Part shown: one piece after another, positions 109-20,744 of the stretch
Numbering within the stretch: the first letter of the stretch is position 1
How the letters are laid out: each line of letters starts with the position of its first letter
Assembly: GCA_001969505.1 (NCBI GenBank)
Contig: LSSK01001135.1
Coordinates: 1 to 34,003 of the forward strand
Reading direction: 5' to 3'
From: Zancudomyces culisetae
Lineage: Eukaryota; Kickxellomycota; Harpellomycetes; Harpellales; Legeriomycetaceae
Length of the DNA: 34,003 nt
The notes under the pieces: generated by a model
Databases searched by the model: none
Seen by the model: the letters and a program-made list of their open reading frames with translations, nothing else
What the model was told of the DNA's origin: nothing
Made by a program: the position numbers and the translations under genes

Positions 109-669
109 CTACACCAAATCGTTAGCCCAATTCGCTGCTTGGATCTCTGCATCAAGCGTGAAAATTTGTTTATCAAGATCATCAATCTGCTCTTGTATTG
201 CGTCGATATCCATGGTTGCAACATTCTCAATTTCAGTTATAGTATATCTCCTTTGTTGACGTGATGTGTATTTAACAACCGCACGCAAAATTCCGCGTAG
301 TCTCAGTAAACGCTCATGTTTTGCAACCGCTGCAATTAGGGTCATCCCACTTTCTGTCTTTGTATGCAAATTGGTGTTTTTGATTCTGATATCCAGGTCC
401 TCAAATTCACGTATCTTAGCATATAACTTGTAAAGAAGAATTTTAGGGTCTTCAGTTGGCGAGATTCCTTCTTGTACAACGGAGTTGGCTGTTATCCGGC
501 TCGTTATATCGTCTATGGTGATTTTGAGACCACTTCGCCGTTCCAGGGCTTCGGCTAACTTTATTATTGCAACATTTCCTTTTGAGGGTCGAGTATTTTC
601 TGGTGTTTTCACTTCTTTTGGAGTATGCATGGCTGCTATACTATTGCATAGTAATAGAAACGAAATCAA
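109..669 (-). CDS. DIP1984-family protein (bacterial-type helical protein, function unknown)
   Basis: This is a 186-residue uninterrupted frame. Family hallmarks run through it in order: LAEALERR near residues 38-45, the segment NSVVQEG then EDPKILL, the charged RIKNTN motif, GMTLIAAVAKHERLLRLR, then RRYTITEIENVATMDI, and the C-terminal LDAEIQAANWANDL. This order matches bacterial proteins of the DIP1984 family (often annotated septicolysin, a name that says nothing reliable about activity). The protein is predicted to be nearly all helical and has no catalytic motif I recognise. Bacterial members start close to the LAEAL motif, so the first 36 residues are extra. Residues 1-13 are hydrophobic and could be a weak signal peptide, or translation may start at Met14 (position 630). 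It lies 177 bp downstream of the ABC transporter on the same strand and has no introns. The family call is strong from the motif order; the role is unknown. Confidence 0.8.
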   Translation of the reverse strand: MISFLLLCNSIAAMHTPKEVKTPENTRPSKGNVAIIKLAEALERRSGLKITIDDITSRITANSVVQEGISPTEDPKILLYKLYAKIREFEDLDIRIKNTNLHTKTESGMTLIAAVAKHERLLRLRGILRAVVKYTSRQQRRYTITEIENVATMDIDAIQEQIDDLDKQIFTLDAEIQAANWANDLV

Positions 670-845: not shown

Positions 846-3800
846 CTAGCTAGAATCGTTTTGTACAAACGAAGCCAGGGTTCCATTATCAAGTGTCAAA
901 GTGTAGTCATAGTCATACACGGTGTTCAATCTATGTGCAATTGTAATAATCGAACACTTGTGTACCACATTTAACTGCTTTATGGCACGGATAAGCTGCT
1001 GTTCGGTGCGGTAGTCGACAGATGCCGTGGCTTCATCAAGAATGATAATCCTAGATGATGATCTGCGTAGCAGTGCGCGAGTAAGGCTCACAAGCTGCTT
1101 CTGCCCAGTTGATAAATTGGCTCCTTTTTCGTGAATGGTAAAATCTAGGGAGTCAATAGTTACACCATCAAACAAACCAGTCTCTGCAACCGCAGCAAGT
1201 AGCTGCTCATCAGGATATTCGTCAAAAAGATCCAGATTGTGTCGCAGTGATCCTGAGAAGAGTAGTGGATCTTGTGGAATAATGGTAATACTTTGGCGCA
1301 ATTTGGTGAGCGGAACAGATGAGATATCGACTCCGTCTATAAGAATATGAGAGTCCATTTTTTGAACGCGCTCAACTAGACGAAGTAAGGCGAGTGTTAG
1401 TGTAGATTTTCCAGAACCAGTACGGCCGACAACAGCGAGTGTTTTTGCAGGGGGCAGAGTAAACGAGATATTGTTAAGTGCAAATTTATCAGTGTTGTCA
1501 TATTTTACGGAAAGGTTCTTAACCACCAACTCGCCAGAGGAGGGCCACAATGAAGTTTCACCAGTGGTATTAGGTTGTGGGGGTATAGTTGATAATACTT
1601 GGACTTGCTGGGGAAGCCTATCTTCAAAGTACTGAGAAATGCGTTCCATGGCGTTCATTCCCAGTTCCAGGTCGGCATAGTCACGGATTGTCCACATGGC
1701 ATATATGTTGAAGCCAAGTGCGTAGCTCAGCACAAACCCAGCAAGGCCTGAGTCAAGCCCAGAGTTTGGGAAGTAATCGATGGCAATTATAATCATGAGA
1801 GAGGCAAAAAAGGAGACCAGCGATCCTATACTATCTGTGGTTAGACTAATCCAGCGATTTAGTGACCACTCAAGATAATAAGACCGGTTGTTTGTATCTA
1901 CACGCCGGGCCGTTTCCAAGATATAGTCATGAGTCTTGTTGAATGCTCTGATTACCGAGCTACCATTGCCACCTAGTTCGACAAAGATGCTGAGAACTGG
2001 CGAAAGCGTGTTGGAATCCAATCTTTTAATCTCGCGAATGGCGTTTAAATATTTAACTGAACGCGAGAGAAATATGGCAGTTACAGCCGCCGAAACGATA
2101 ATAAACGCTGGAGTTACTGAAATTACAACAACAAACACTGAGATAGCGCTGATAACGTGGCTCAAAAAATATGTAATATTTTCGATTATCCTTTCATCTA
2201 ACCGCATGGTGTCACGCGAAAATCGATTAATGATCCTCCCAACCGGTGTTACATCAAAAAACGAAGGTATAGCATTGGACACCGACTGCGTCAATCGGTA
2301 ATGAATTTCTTTGCTACTTTTTATTCCGCCTTTGTATATGCTATAGTTTGCCAATTGTTGTAGGACAACAAAGAGTATACCAACAAGCAAGTACATGCTT
2401 AGGAAGTACATGGAATTGCTAGCGCTGCTGCTGTTGTCTTCAGATTGAAGCCAAATCCTTATCAAGTAATTTTGGAAAATTTGTACAATACGACCGCCTA
2501 GTGCCAACGATACTACTGCAACCCAAAACCAAGAGCCCCCCATTGAAGAAAAGTATGCCCACCATACATCCAGTCGCAGTGTACCATACTCCCGCTGCTC
2601 CTCTCCAGCATCTTCAACGTCTTCTGCATCGCTCTCATCATCATTGTCATCATCACCACCCTCGCTGTTACGGTTTGATGTCAAGCGTGAGTTTTTCAAC
2701 TGTCTTTCTAGCTGTTTCTGTTGGTTAAATTCGTCCTCAGACGGGTCGCTTGTCTGTTTTTCCATTATTTGAGACAGAATTGGTTGAGTGTCATCTGTGG
2801 AGCTTGTTGAGAAGTAACTAAACACATTTCTTCCATCTCCCTGCTCAGCAACTCTCCCACTTTCCATAACCACAATCCAGCTGGCATATTTGGCAACCAA
2901 ATCGACCATATGTGTCACCAACACTATTGTTCGTCCCTCCATTATTTTGCTTCTGGTGCTGGGATCAAAGCAGTAGTAAACAATGTGGTGTGCTGTTTGT
3001 GAATCTACGGCTGACAGCACATCATCCAACAATACGCATTGTGCTTGCGAATACAGTGCTCGTGCCAAGCTGATTCTTTGCTTCTGTCCTCCAGAAAGTG
3101 TGATTCCGCGCTCACCTACTTGACTTTGGTCACCATTAACCAACTGCCTGAAATCTGCCTTTAGTGCTGTCATTTTCAGTACTTGTTCGTATCTCTCAAC
3201 GTCATACTCAGATCCAAACAGGATGTTGTCTCGCACGGTTGCGTTCCTCAGCCATGATTCCTGGGGTACATAACCAATCATACTACCCCCAACAGATCCT
3301 GGCCGTGTGGTTGCTGCTTCCGTTGTTGCTGCTCCTCTTGGATACATCATGTATCCCTCAACAAGCTTCATCTCCCCTAACAACGCTCGCAACATTGAAG
3401 TTTTTCCTGACCCTACTTTTCCTGTTATAATTGTAAGTTTACCCCTCAAGAATTTTATGTTTAGGTTTTGTAACTTGAATTCGTTACTTTTAGTTGCATC
3501 TCCATTGTCAACATCTAAAAGTGGTGTGTTTTCGTTGCTTTTATGTTTGCAATCCCCTTGGTTTTGAGGTTGTGAATACTCCCAGGATAGTGTTGCATTA
3601 ACAAAACCAAAATCACCTGTACTGGCACTCTCAGTTTCATCACTTTCTGATTGACCTGTCTTTGAGATATCATGCGAGTTATCCTCAATAAAACTCTCGA
3701 GTCGTCTTAATGACACTAACGCGCTAAGGTGATATTTGATATCCTCGAAGAACATATCAAACACTACTTTCAAAATCTCAAACACACTCAGCGATGTAAA

Positions 3801-5345
3801 CACAATACTGTTTGTCATTTCGTGCCCCAATATCACGGAATATATCAGAAACGAGCTAAAAAGCACCAAAATTGGGATGAACAACGTTCCAAACCCAATA
3901 GTTATCCATATCTTATTGATTTCCCACAAATATCCCAGTTGGGTTGATCGAAGCTTTGTTATTTTTTCTACAAACTTTTCTTCCCACCCAAACAGCTTGA
4001 CTGCACGCATCCCACCGATCATTTCAGATACTGCTGATATTCGCTTATCCAATGCTGAGTTCTTCCTGTCTTCCAGATCTACCACTCGGTTAAATGTTGA
4101 CTTTGTAAGTGGGTAGTAGCTTGCCATAATCACTATTCCGAATAGTGAAGATGGACCCAATAATTTATACAAATAAATTATTGCCACCAATGCTTGGATA
4201 AGACTGATAAAACAAAAGTCTATATATCCCGAGTACTCGGATACACGTGTTAGATCTGTGCTCACTAAACCTAGTGCCTCTCTCGTGCTGTTTTCTTGCC
4301 CAGATGTGTCTCCTTCCTGTTGTGCATTGTTGGATTTGACAGCTTCCTCTTCACCTCCTGAGCCCAGCGAATTTAGTGACTTTTCTGCAATTTCACAGCT
4401 CAGTGCATTTTTTAGTTTAATAGACAGCTTCCTTCCTATCCACAACGATTGGTTTTCCATAATATATTGAATTGTTGTAAATATTAACAACCCGACACAG
4501 TACCCGTATATTTCTGCTCGTCCATTTTGTTTTTCATTTCCCTCTTTGTTTTCCAAGTAATTCGGTATCTGGTTTATAAAGAATGGCCCGCTAAACTTAA
4601 ACACTGTCAACAACAATCCTACAGAAACTTTGAGGATCAGTTCCCATTTAAGAAGAATAGCCAGCCTCATTAGTAATGAGCTCTTTTTACTTTTATTTGT
4701 AGTGCTGCTAGCATCAGTTTTCTTGAATCGTTTCCAGCATGCACCCGGAAGATCATTGCCCTTAAACTTGAATAAATCTATATACTCTAACTTTACTCGA
4801 CCTGCTTTTCCAATAATTTCGTCAAGCCATGTAAAATACATGCGAGAAAGGAATGATGCCGAATATTCGGGTGATTCTACTAATTTAGTTGCGGATATAT
4901 ACACATTTCCACCTTCTCGAGTTTGTTTGTGCTCCTGACCTGTACCTCCTTCTTGAACCTGTTCTTCGTTCTCATCTACTTTTTCAAGTTTAACTCCGGT
5001 GTATGCGAGACCCACTACCATTGCATTGCCAATAACTATAAACCAAATTATTAGATGGCATACTAGATTACGCAGCATTTCATCTTTCACCAAGTCTGAT
5101 TCACTAGATAAAAATCCAAGTAAACTATAAGTCTCGTACAAGCTAGCCAGGAATAGGAAAAAAATAGCTTGTGTAGTTGCCAAAGATACTCGATGTGAAA
5201 GGAATTTTCCTGTCTGATCAATGCTTTCAACGATTTTTCTCCCCGTGTACATCACCATTAATGTCCATGAGAGTGACATACTGAGTATTTCTTGTTTATT
5301 GCTTGGATAAATATTCTCATTTAATACTATTACACTTATATTCAT
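846..5345 (-). CDS. ABC transporter, subfamily C (MRP/Ycf1-like)
   Basis: This intronless gene encodes 1499 residues with the full MRP layout TMD0/L0-TMD1-NBD1-TMD2-NBD2. About three hydrophobic helices lie before residue 120, then a cytosolic linker, and TMD1 spans roughly 225-560. NBD1 has Walker A GKVGSGKT (about 641), signature LSGGQ (about 749) and Walker B CVLLDD (about 770). A very acidic linker (about 890-920) precedes TMD2 (about 925-1230). NBD2 has Walker A GRTGSGKST (about 1306), signature LSTGQ (about 1411), Walker B IIILDE (about 1432) and the AHRL H-loop (about 1470). NBD1 has Asp where the catalytic Glu normally sits after Walker B, as is usual in MRPs, so NBD2 probably does most of the hydrolysis. 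Relatives export glutathione conjugates and other organic anions across the vacuolar or plasma membrane; the substrate here cannot be read. The Met start is supported by an in-frame stop two codons upstream. TMD0 looks shorter than the usual five helices. Confidence 0.95.
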   Translation of the reverse strand: MNISVIVLNENIYPSNKQEILSMSLSWTLMVMYTGRKIVESIDQTGKFLSHRVSLATTQAIFFLFLASLYETYSLLGFLSSESDLVKDEMLRNLVCHLIIWFIVIGNAMVVGLAYTGVKLEKVDENEEQVQEGGTGQEHKQTREGGNVYISATKLVESPEYSASFLSRMYFTWLDEIIGKAGRVKLEYIDLFKFKGNDLPGACWKRFKKTDASSTTNKSKKSSLLMRLAILLKWELILKVSVGLLLTVFKFSGPFFINQIPNYLENKEGNEKQNGRAEIYGYCVGLLIFTTIQYIMENQSLWIGRKLSIKLKNALSCEIAEKSLNSLGSGGEEEAVKSNNAQQEGDTSGQENSTREALGLVSTDLTRVSEYSGYIDFCFISLIQALVAIIYLYKLLGPSSLFGIVIMASYYPLTKSTFNRVVDLEDRKNSALDKRISAVSEMIGGMRAVKLFGWEEKFVEKITKLRSTQLGYLWEINKIWITIGFGTLFIPILVLFSSFLIYSVILGHEMTNSIVFTSLSVFEILKVVFDMFFEDIKYHLSALVSLRRLESFIEDNSHDISKTGQSESDETESASTGDFGFVNATLSWEYSQPQNQGDCKHKSNENTPLLDVDNGDATKSNEFKLQNLNIKFLRGKLTIITGKVGSGKTSMLRALLGEMKLVEGYMMYPRGAATTEAATTRPGSVGGSMIGYVPQESWLRNATVRDNILFGSEYDVERYEQVLKMTALKADFRQLVNGDQSQVGERGITLSGGQKQRISLARALYSQAQCVLLDDVLSAVDSQTAHHIVYYCFDPSTRSKIMEGRTIVLVTHMVDLVAKYASWIVVMESGRVAEQGDGRNVFSYFSTSSTDDTQPILSQIMEKQTSDPSEDEFNQQKQLERQLKNSRLTSNRNSEGGDDDNDDESDAEDVEDAGEEQREYGTLRLDVWWAYFSSMGGSWFWVAVVSLALGGRIVQIFQNYLIRIWLQSEDNSSSASNSMYFLSMYLLVGILFVVLQQLANYSIYKGGIKSSKEIHYRLTQSVSNAIPSFFDVTPVGRIINRFSRDTMRLDERIIENITYFLSHVISAISVFVVVISVTPAFIIVSAAVTAIFLSRSVKYLNAIREIKRLDSNTLSPVLSIFVELGGNGSSVIRAFNKTHDYILETARRVDTNNRSYYLEWSLNRWISLTTDSIGSLVSFFASLMIIIAIDYFPNSGLDSGLAGFVLSYALGFNIYAMWTIRDYADLELGMNAMERISQYFEDRLPQQVQVLSTIPPQPNTTGETSLWPSSGELVVKNLSVKYDNTDKFALNNISFTLPPAKTLAVVGRTGSGKSTLTLALLRLVERVQKMDSHILIDGVDISSVPLTKLRQSITIIPQDPLLFSGSLRHNLDLFDEYPDEQLLAAVAETGLFDGVTIDSLDFTIHEKGANLSTGQKQLVSLTRALLRRSSSRIIILDEATASVDYRTEQQLIRAIKQLNVVHKCSIITIAHRLNTVYDYDYTLTLDNGTLASFVQNDSS

Positions 5346-16593: not shown

Positions 16594-18923
16594 CTAAATG
16601 TACAAGCCAGTAACAACCCCTGTGGCCAAACACTCGTTGTTTTTGAATAACGTAAATCTTCCCATGCAATTGTTGCAAGTTCTGTACAAATCAAGCAAAA
16701 TTGGGTGAGAAAGATGGTTTTGTTGGGTTATGTTGTGATGGTTATTGGTATCTGGTCCAGGACCGCTAGAATCAACCAAGAGTTTGATTTCTACAGACTT
16801 TGTGGGTAATAGTAGGTCACCACCACCGCTACTAGTACCTTTAGAAGACCTTCCGGAGACAACAAAAGTGGGTTGCTGCTTAGGTCCAATCCTTTTGATG
16901 ACAGCAGGAACAGTAGTGTTGTAGGCATGGAACATTACATTGAGACCTTTGGTCAAAATGCAATTGTTGTTGAATACAGTGACATCCGCTATCAGTCTAT
17001 TTGTTGGGAATATAATATCGGCGATGTTTACAGAGCCACTAGGAAGATTCGTGTTGGCTACAAGACTGTCATATGAAGCTAAGAATGACCCAACCCGATA
17101 GTTGTTAATATCAATACCTGTCAAGTTCAGCGTAACCATATCACCAGCAACTGCCCACAAATAATCGTTTCCATCATTACTATCACCACCATTGTTATCG
17201 CCGTCACCAAGAGATGAAACCAGCAGCGAATCGTGGTATAGATACTTGACAGAAGCAACCTCCAATTTGACAGCAGATGAGGCAGCACTAGCAGAAGTAG
17301 TGGTATGACCGTGTGTCAGGGTTGAAGATCCAGCGTTTGTGAGAGTATGAGTCGAAATGGGAATTGAAATCAACCTATCACCCACTTGTACGCTTCCTTG
17401 AACAACTCTACCGCTAACACTAACAGAAGTACTGGAGCCATGGCCACTGTCCTTGTAATAATCGTTTATAAGGATTCGAAGTGGTTTATCGATATCACCA
17501 CGATCAGGTAAGGGAACAGAGTCCAGTGCTTCGATTAAACTAAGCTGTCGTTTCTGATTATCTTCATCTTGCATTTCATCAACACTAACACTATTGGCAT
17601 TGGCATTGGCATTGACATTGCCGTTATCGTTGTTATACCATTCAGAAAAAGTTAGCAACGAAGGTGATTGAGCATTTTTGTCTATACGTTTGACCAGATT
17701 TACACCAGTCATCCCAGAAACTGGTACAAAACGAATCTTTTGCATGTCAAATCCATTGGTGATAAAAAAGTCGGTCATTTGCTGGATAATAAACTTAAAC
17801 CTGTCGACTGACCAATCACAATTTTCCATCTTGTTGACAGCAACAATGATGTTTTCAACACCAAAGCTCTTTACCAACATGGCGTGATCCTTAGTGGTTG
17901 AAGTTGAAGCTAGTGTTTGTGTGTGCGTGTGCTTCTGTGCCGAGTGGTGTTTACTGCTAGTACTGTTCGCTATGTTTTCAAAAAAGCCCGTTTCAAATTC
18001 ACCCTTGCTGGAATCAACCACAAGAATGGCTACATCGGCTTGTGACGCACCATTAATCATGTTGGATAGAAAATCACGATGGCCTGGTGCATCCATCAGC
18101 GTAAATGTTCGGTTGGCTGTCCGAAAGCTGTTGGTTGAAATGTCGATAGTTACCCCACGCTCCCGCTCCATATCCGTCTGATCAAGCACCCAGGCATACG
18201 CAAATGTCTTCTTGCCAATCTTTTCTGATTCCTTTTCGTACTTTCTCATTATTCGCTCGTTTACTTGCCCTCTTTCATATAGCAATCGCCCCATCAGCGT
18301 ACTTTTTCCTGAATCCACGTGTCCAACAACCACCAAATTCATATTGTGGTCGATTTCTCTCCGCTTTGCGTACTCCGCCTTTACATCTATTTTTTTCTTT
18401 CCCTTGGATATACTTCCTCTTCCTTTGTCGTCTCGAATGCTCAATGATGCCAAATCTTTATTTTAAAATATATTAGACTTCATTTTCACAAAATATTCAT
18501 CTTTTTACTTAACTAACTTTTGTACTAGAATGTAATTTACCCTTACCAATACCACTCGCCTTCCTGTCGCTGCCCTTGCTTTGAGCCGCAAAGACAACAT
18601 CATCAGGACTTGGTGTATCAAACCCAAACGCCTTAACATCGCCACCATCTCCGCTAACCACTCCTCCTTTACCTTTCCCTCCCTTTGGTTTTAAAGTAAC
18701 TTTGTTTCCACCCTTTGTCTTGTTAGCTACGCCTATTTCAATATTTAAAATTCCCACGTCAATAATTTTTTTAGTTTTAGATTCTGTGGTGGCTTTGGTG
18801 TTAATCTTGGCTTTGAGGTTGGGCTTGAGTTTAGGAATGAGTTTGATACTGGCTTTGATATTGGTATTGATATTGGTATGTTTTTCAGTTTTGTTCTCAT
18901 CAAGTTGCTGTTGTTGTTGCTGT

Positions 18924-18958
<35 letters not shown>

Positions 18959-20744
18959 TTGCTGTTGCTGTTGTTGCTGTTGCTGTTGCTGTTGTTCTTG
19001 TAAATATAATAGCAGTCTATTGTTGATTCTATCTATTCCACAGATTTCTATATTCTTCAACCTCCACACATTTCTTATATTTTCAGTCAAAGGAATATCA
19101 TTGTTTTCCAACAAAAATCTCGCAAAAGATGATCTTTGCGCAAGCAGTTGCGTTTCCGACTGATTTTTAACTAGAATACCAGTGGGTTCAACATGATTCT
19201 TATCCATCCTAGTGATTCCCGGTAGCCTGGGCATTAGGGGTCGTTGAATCTTTGGAATACTTGGTGTGGTTTTATTATCACCAGCTCTTGGTGCTATCCT
19301 TGGAATGCTGGTATTTAAAACCGGTAAGTTTTGGCTGGTTTTTCCAGTGTTATAATCCAGTAGGCTCCTCCGCAGACCTGCCAGTTCTGTTTTGGGTTTG
19401 GTATTATCCAAATCTCCAATTGAATCTAATGCGCCGGAAATCGCAACTGATGATAAGGCTGTTGATACGTTTGTACGTTCTCCCCGACTATCTTTGCCTA
19501 TAGAGAGACCCAGAATATCTCTGGTTTTCTTTTCTTCATGTAAACCTTTTTTCTGAAAACTACCAATTTTTGGTAATCCAAAGTTGGACTTGTTTAAGCT
19601 GGGGAGCCTAGGTAACTCTGGACCCTTAAGCTCCTTTTTCTCGGGTTGAGTAGGTTTTGATGTATTTAAAGTAACTACGCTCTTAGTCTTGTTTGTAAAT
19701 AATTCGGTTTCTTCCTGTTCCTCTTCTAGTCGGTAATTGCACAATAACATTCGCTTTTAATATATTCTTCCTTCGCATTTTACTCGCAGTTCGTGTTTTC
19801 ATTTCCACGTTGTTTACCAAAAAGAACCTCTTTGTATTCTTGACAAAGTATCACAAACCAGTATCCTGGTAACCATTAAACTCTCACCGTTTATCAAAAT
19901 CCATCAAAAAAAATCCAAAATTAACAATTAGCAATTAACTGCCAAATACTTTACACCTCTACCATTCACTATCTCCTTTTTCAACTCTTTTTTTTGATGG
20001 CCATTTACTCAAAATATTTCAAAGCATGGCTTTTCCACCTCTCCCCCATGCATGATATTCTCATTTTTTTAAAAGTAAATCCTAGCATAGTTGCTAGGTA
20101 AAAATTAAAACGATAATCCTATATGAACAAATTACCTTGACCAATATCTAATTTGTATTGCTCTATTTTATTTTATTGCCACAAACGTTGTTTTTATTTA
20201 ATATAATACATCAATACCTAAAAATTTCACTCCCCGCCCCTAATAAGCACTATATTTTCGATTTTCAAATACTTACTCTTTAGATATGACAACGTCTTGT
20301 TTTCATCAAAATAATAGTACCACAATGAATCTTTAATCTCCCGATCCGGAATTTTGTGATTCTTTCCCAACTTTTGCTTTATGCTTTTAACTCCATTTTC
20401 AAGCCGTTCTACAGTTCGTAGCAATTTGCAAATTAGAACTTACACTTTTCGATTCTACAAGATAAGTAGCTTCTCAATTCGTTAACTCTCCCGCCCCTTG
20501 TCCAGAAAATACATTTGTATGATTACCTAGATCAGCTTCGGAAATTTCTTCTTGATCATAGTCTTGGTCACTGTAATAATCTATTTTGGATTCATTGGCG
20601 AAAATGGTGGTGTATATTAGTCAATTTGTTTATCCCCTCCCCCCCTCTCTCTTTCAATAACTTTTGTTAATTCTGTATCCAATTGTTTCTTTTACCTTCC
20701 TCCTCCTCCAAATCTATCTTTTTAACTGCTCTGTGCCGCGACAT
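16594..20744 (-). CDS. HBS1: Hbs1, eRF3/EF1A-like ribosome-rescue GTPase, five exons
   Basis: Exons are 20744-20696, 20580-20527, 20408-20277, 19725-18547 and 18455-16594; joined they give 1091 codons plus stop. All four introns are phase 1. Exon 1 gives the family start MSRHRAVKK plus an acidic run. Exons 2-3 give the Hbs1 N-terminal domain (EISEADLE, then IPDREIKDSLWYYYFDENKT), which contacts the ribosome. Exon 4 is a long disordered linker with 30 Gln and ends in the family motif FDTPSPDDVVFAAQSK. Exon 5 is the GTPase and beta-barrel core: GHVDSGKS (about 516), DAPG (about 593), NKME (about 679), ending CLATGVVTGLYI. Hbs1 pairs with Dom34/Pelota to free stalled ribosomes in no-go and non-stop decay. 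The last exon has no Met start, which confirms splicing. The donor of intron 4 could also be 6 nt further on. The protein is much longer than the usual ~610-690 residues because of the linker and inserts in the G domain. Confidence 0.92.
18905..18994 (-). repeat. CAA/CAG repeat encoding 30 Gln in Hbs1
   Basis: Thirty uninterrupted glutamine codons, a mix of CAA and CAG, lie in exon 4 of HBS1. They fall between the N-terminal domain and the GTPase core, after the segment RLLLYLQE. Mixed codons suggest the tract is not a freshly expanded pure CAG run. Confidence 0.95.
19726..20276 (-). other. HBS1 intron 3 (551 nt), unusually long
   Basis: Donor GTAAGT at 20276 and acceptor CTAG ending at 19726 join exons 3 and 4 in phase 1 and restore the family reading frame. 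The other introns in this gene are 91-118 nt. Inside, a 12-nt segment (20147-20136) is flanked by TTAG and GTAATT and would keep the phase. It is a possible micro-exon, unproven. Confidence 0.6.

Follow-up and report, generated by a model that had tools for sequence, protein, structure and literature searches.

The 34,003-nucleotide contig LSSK01001135.1 of Zancudomyces culisetae (Kickxellomycota, Harpellales), a gut fungus of insect larvae, carries near one end a gene of the DIP1984/DUF6847 family (positions 109–630, minus strand). The whole contig is referred to below as the window. Comparison with fungal and bacterial relatives indicates that this is very probably a resident nuclear gene of the fungus, one that evolves fast and is paralogous to a DIP1984/DUF6847 gene present in at least two fungal phyla. 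The initial annotation of the window had proposed that the gene was acquired from bacteria by this fungus.

The gene, its product and its second copy

Read from the ATG at 628–630 to the stop codon at 109–111, the gene encodes a protein of 173 amino acids that matches two family profiles over their entire length: PF20935 (DUF6847; E-value 6.4e-35, 120.6 bits against a cut-off of 27, model positions 1–141 of 141) and NF038048 (DIP1984 family; 130.7 bits against a cut-off of 70, model positions 1–149 of 149). A chance match is excluded because of the E-values of the family profiles. The protein also matches PDB entry 3kdq, a conserved protein of Corynebacterium diphtheriae (E 1.3e-15), and its predicted fold agrees with the four-helix fold of 3kdq; the helical core is encoded at 112–561 (minus strand). 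The reading frame encodes a full-length DIP1984/DUF6847 protein that shares the whole-model profile match and the four-helix fold with the family. It differs from the family in a 22-residue N-terminal extension, in an ATA codon in place of the initiator codon, and in altered residues at D34, R105, D106 and R157. With the single sequence as query, a protein search over 102 candidates had no hit at E 0.001; relatives surfaced only when alignments were used as queries. The window protein itself is not among the best 120 listed proteins of the alignment search headed by its own sequence, and it may be missing from public annotation or modelled differently there. PADLOC gave no match for seven proteins (three family members and four neighbours), and PHROGs, searched with three proteins, gave weak matches alone, for two of them (E 0.008 and 0.010).

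The open reading frame (ORF) extends over 109–669 and opens with a TTG immediately after a stop codon, so that a form of 186 amino acids requires a TTG start. Translation from TTG seems unlikely in a fungus, and the stretch between this TTG and the ATG (631–669, minus strand), which is in frame and holds no ATG, is probably untranslated. It is hydrophobic, the first 13 residues of the TTG form having a mean hydropathy of 2.0. The initial annotation recorded a gain of about 36 N-terminal residues; a gain is indeed seen, and it amounts to 22 residues (565–630, minus strand), since the first ATG lies at 630. This extension, located upstream of the ancestral start, is predicted to be disordered (pLDDT, the predicted local distance difference test, of 49 and 45 in its first two ten-residue blocks). 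It is hydrophilic (grand average of hydropathy −1.13), with four K/R, two E, a net charge of +2 and three prolines. Being hydrophilic, with this net charge, and disordered in the model, the extension of the ATG form lends no clear support to the targeting sequence suggested earlier; the TTG form would instead open with the hydrophobic stretch. An out-of-frame upstream ORF of two codons (ATG CAA TAG, 641–649, minus strand) is found just ahead of the ATG at 630.

The gene upstream encodes an ABC transporter of 1499 amino acids (846–5345, minus strand) in the same direction. The gap between its stop and the DIP1984 gene measures 215 bp when counted to the ATG and 176 bp when counted to the TTG; the ORF and the five family motifs quoted in the initial annotation stand, and the gap of 177 bp given there is corrected by these distances. 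The 3′ end of the gene is 108 bp from the contig end, beyond which the flank is not visible. We also enumerated 21 GT-AG intron models that would link an upstream ATG to the core, none of which has a GTATGT or GTAAGT donor. The sole GT-AG model that starts at the ATG at 630 would use the donor GTGAAA and an intron of 54 bases. The spliced models were rejected, and the gene is read as a single exon.

As the initial annotation stated, the gene shares its contig with eukaryotic genes: the window also encodes Hsp70, a RhoGEF, an EF-Tu-type GTPase, a subtilase and the ABC transporter, as well as a DEAD_2 helicase segment. A second DIP1984 copy was identified on contig C196 of the same genome (AX774_g4670, UniRef name "Septicolysin"). 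It encodes 151 amino acids without the extension, starts at the usual ATG and is 49% identical to the window copy over the core. Its neighbours are M3 peptidase, RNase H1, OTU and PITH genes; the RNase H1 has its N-terminal domain and the OTU protease is present as a segment (L007:5627-6742 and L007:7614-8687). The G + C (GC) content of the window is 37.3%, and the overall GC of the DIP1984 gene is host-like; at third codon positions its GC (GC3) is lower, 0.347 versus 0.392–0.411 in four other genes. Contamination is unlikely because two diverged copies lie on two eukaryotic contigs and overall GC is host-like. The genome searched comprises 23.1 Mb in 859 contigs, fewer contigs and bases than the published draft (1,954 scaffolds, 28.70 Mb, 35.52% GC, as given in the excerpt of PMC5954228), and is thus perhaps a subset. 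A PacBio HiFi assembly and a transcriptome are available for Z. culisetae strain HAW-14-8 (PMC12611240).

A fungal clade and a divergent paralogue

An unrooted tree was built from 72 rows, 19 of the fungal clade and 53 bacterial, the latter made up of 37 genome loci, 4 plasmid loci and 12 database proteins. For the genome loci, 38 of 80 were tried and 37 used, L021 being dropped for an internal stop. All 19 fungal-clade rows lie on one side of a branch with 99/99 support in this tree, in which the bootstrap had not settled, and the support was 100/99 after eight long-branch bacterial rows were dropped. Nine of the 19 rows are fungi of two phyla: Gongronella and Hesseltinella, of one family, for the Mucoromycota, and two Coemansia, Furculomyces, two Smittium and the two Zancudomyces copies for the Kickxellomycota. 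The other ten are database proteins placed there by the tree only. When 120 other proteins were compared with the window copy by bit score, the top eight (125–139) were all of the fungal clade, and the best other row scored 112.

The family is chiefly bacterial, as had been recognized at the outset, among the matches listed: the alignment search gave 5261 matches at E ≤ 0.001, and in the best 120 of these the proteins with names are mostly bacterial. The 80 genome loci with the family are spread over many phyla. Within bacteria its occurrence is patchy: in genome sets from four phyla, each including a centre genome that was chosen as a carrier, members above cut-off were present in 7 of 194, 18 of 299, 13 of 201 and 12 of 296.

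The window copy stands out by its divergence. Its terminal branch is 1.05, versus 0.24 for the C196 copy, and in an alignment of 76 rows (A4) it has the lowest share of conserved columns, keeping 27 of the 32 that are conserved at ≥ 90% in the 75 other rows; 31 of 32 are retained in the C196 copy, and all 75 other rows have a share of at least 0.875 (leave-one-out). The changed positions are M23, the initiator methionine, which is Met in 75 of 75 other rows and ATA here (562–564, minus strand); D34, kept in 72 of 75; R105, kept in 74; D106, kept in 73, the glutamate of the window copy also being found in two rows; and R157, kept in all 75. Identity to the C196 paralogue at the first, second and third codon positions is 0.63, 0.70 and 0.38, a pattern as expected for constrained coding sequence. 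By these measures the window copy is a fast-evolving, long-branch paralogue, that is, a diverged member of a known family. We infer that the gene was duplicated within the fungal lineage; on the simplest reading, the original ATG became ATA and the start moved to the in-frame ATG upstream, the former leader sequence turning into the disordered tail. The copy would then have diverged further, altering an R-D pair and one more arginine that are near-universal in its relatives.

The view of the initial annotation, in which a bacterium would have passed the gene directly and recently to this fungus, could draw on the mostly bacterial names among the best matches, on the 80 genome loci from many phyla and on a GC3 somewhat below that of host genes. 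The phylogeny itself leaves it some room: a topology that separates the window copy from the remaining 18 rows of the fungal clade is not rejected (p-AU, from the approximately unbiased test, 0.347). The placement of the duplication is likewise loosely constrained, with p-AU 0.097 for the window and C196 copies together and 0.328 for a Harpellales group including the window copy; a clade of Kickxellomycotina only is rejected (p-AU 0.002), by a constraint that is unfair because the rows it omits fall beside Coemansia. Against a recent transfer stand the grouping of the 19 fungal-clade rows in both trees, the fungal-clade identity of the eight best-scoring proteins and the host's overall GC. A broad fungal clade across two phyla is largely what the initial annotation had named as refuting its proposal, and we regard recent transfer as largely refuted and very improbable. 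A transfer into Zancudomyces alone is not supported by these sequences; an earlier arrival in the fungi, with later vertical inheritance, loss and duplication, is possible and would fit. No direction of transfer is shown because the tree is unrooted.

Another alternative, that the copy is a pseudogene in decay or the product of a misassembled junction, has more in its favour and is still unlikely. The copy keeps the fewest conserved columns of the 76 rows, has lost the ancestral start codon, lies 108 bp from a contig end and is absent from the best 120 proteins listed for its own query. Yet the frame is open over its full length and overall GC is host-like, and the signal of constraint across codon positions persists while third positions are nearly randomised, this signal being common to both lineages. 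A resident, diverged paralogue is the reading we prefer.

Elsewhere in the window, an ORF of 413 amino acids (18509–19750) contains a run of 30 glutamines, a possible length-variable repeat, and a weak, below-cut-off match to TFIIA. Scans of the window for tRNA and Rfam families found nothing.

The septicolysin label

Labels on some Acinetobacter and UniRef records would make the family a pore-forming cytolysin, "septicolysin". The term denotes thiol-activated (cholesterol-dependent) cytolysins, large secreted proteins with a cytolysin domain and a conserved cysteine motif. What speaks for this reading is the label (records H11 and H42, the UniRef name of P0001, and several papers), which is repeated in the literature (e.g., in the excerpts of PMC12239588 and PMC7426719). 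The proteins themselves argue otherwise. No cytolysin is found among the five Pfam families reached by the window protein at E ≤ 1, nor among the 25 commonest of the 227 Pfam families matched by 76 members. The ATG form, of 173 amino acids, has no cysteine and a maximum 19-residue hydropathy of 0.65, and the predicted fold is the four-helix fold of 3kdq. A cytolysin is therefore exceedingly improbable.

Genes with the same label have been described in other fungi; these are likened to the window family by label alone, their sequences lying outside the tree. In the excerpts available, a Malassezia septicolysin-like gene is named as a candidate for horizontal transfer, with five copies in M. globosa (PMC7426719; PMC12239588), and orf19.716 of Candida albicans is called a septicolysin homologue (PMC3851762; PMC6851284). 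Deletion of orf19.716 slowed agar invasion (4 days versus 2) and reduced hyphae in the tongue (PMC6851284). Table 2 of that study gives burden and weight loss equal to wild type; its text instead groups orf19.716 with the mutants whose weight loss was different, and puts the counts of all mutants below those of a control mutant (PMC6851284). In published extracts, orf19.716 is further listed as biofilm-induced, as one of four genes common to Bcr1 target sets, with regulation differing between two Candida species, and in a spaceflight expression table (PMC3851762). Further literature was drawn on in part (PMC10889530; PMC3358182; PMC5559437; PMC3228736; PMC6591175). The initial annotation knew of no role for the family in any fungus; a deletion phenotype has been published for orf19.716, and the published data give no mechanism, to which extent the remark holds.

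RNA ligases near bacterial DIP1984 genes

We surveyed the neighbourhoods of bacterial DIP1984 genes, 709 flanking ORFs in 141 loci; 5 of 146 loci were dropped as they had no DIP1984 ORF in the frames used. Flanks were 1.5–3 kb, often cut. Of the 141 loci, 9 have RtcB near DIP1984 (13 ORFs) and 4 have a PF09414 RNA ligase (4 ORFs); all 17 ligase ORFs are on the strand of the DIP1984 gene. Pfam matches confirm RtcB in L050, L066, L055 and L151, and at the other loci it was assigned by similarity to these four; for the RNA ligase, Pfam confirmation covers L036, L033 and L076. The RtcB gene ends 27–29 bp ahead of the DIP1984 match in four Paenibacillus loci, and in the cyanobacterial L076 the DIP1984 gene is flanked by both an RNA ligase and RtcB (same-strand examples at L076:1006-4462, L050:1056-5452, L055:3573-4751 and L151:2-1297). 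Neighbourhoods with RtcB or a DRB0094-like ligase occur in Bacillota, Cyanobacteriota and Actinomycetota.

After removal of seven duplicates, from the same genome or the same place, 134 distinct loci (604,075 bases) were left; some of these, L011 and L013 for example, may still be near-duplicates. Of the 134, 8 have RtcB, 3 have an RNA ligase and 10 have either. The density in carrier genomes predicts approximately 0.16 RtcB (28 pieces in 108.9 Mb) and 0.15 RNA ligase (13 matches in 52.1 Mb). The resulting P values, approximately 2e-5 for RtcB counted as four lineages and 5e-4 for three RNA ligases, are rough, as the loci were not sampled at random and the choice of neighbour families followed inspection.

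Other recurrent neighbours were observed. The cyanobacterial loci L026, L028, L033 and L109 have in common a protein of 471–496 amino acids, with a weak VWA match in the three that were scanned. In L079 (1160-2461), L117 and L118, a coiled-coil protein of 434–442 amino acids, assigned to no family, is encoded 39 bp upstream of DIP1984; a second DIP1984 copy is nearby in L079, and the L117 and L118 genomes also contain one.

The likeliest molecular role is a tentative one: the family may comprise small intracellular helical proteins that bind RNA or hold an RNA-processing partner, acting as RNA-ligase accessories in some bacteria. Two findings count against it: 124 of the 134 loci, other Paenibacillus loci included, have neither RtcB nor RNA ligase in their flanks, and no RtcB or PF09414 match was found in the fungal genome searched. 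A role in RNA repair is a lead only, and a weaker one still for the fungal copies, since in the fungus the DIP1984 protein would act without RNA ligases. It is a rather doubtful further step that, in mobile bacterial systems for RNA repair, DIP1984 proteins might serve as subunits that bind RNA or act as a scaffold; fungi would have acquired the subunit once without the ligase, and Zancudomyces would later have duplicated it, giving a diverged second form. No RNA-ligase-linked role for the family was proposed in the literature searched, whose coverage did not extend to reviews of RNA-repair systems.

For the papers on fungi and hospital plasmids in which the family bears a toxin label, the present analysis gives that label no support from sequence or fold. 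The RNA-ligase neighbourhoods suggest a testable hypothesis about the function of the family. In Z. culisetae, what was claimed as a cross-kingdom transfer is very probably an ordinary gene of the fungus together with a rapidly evolving duplicate.
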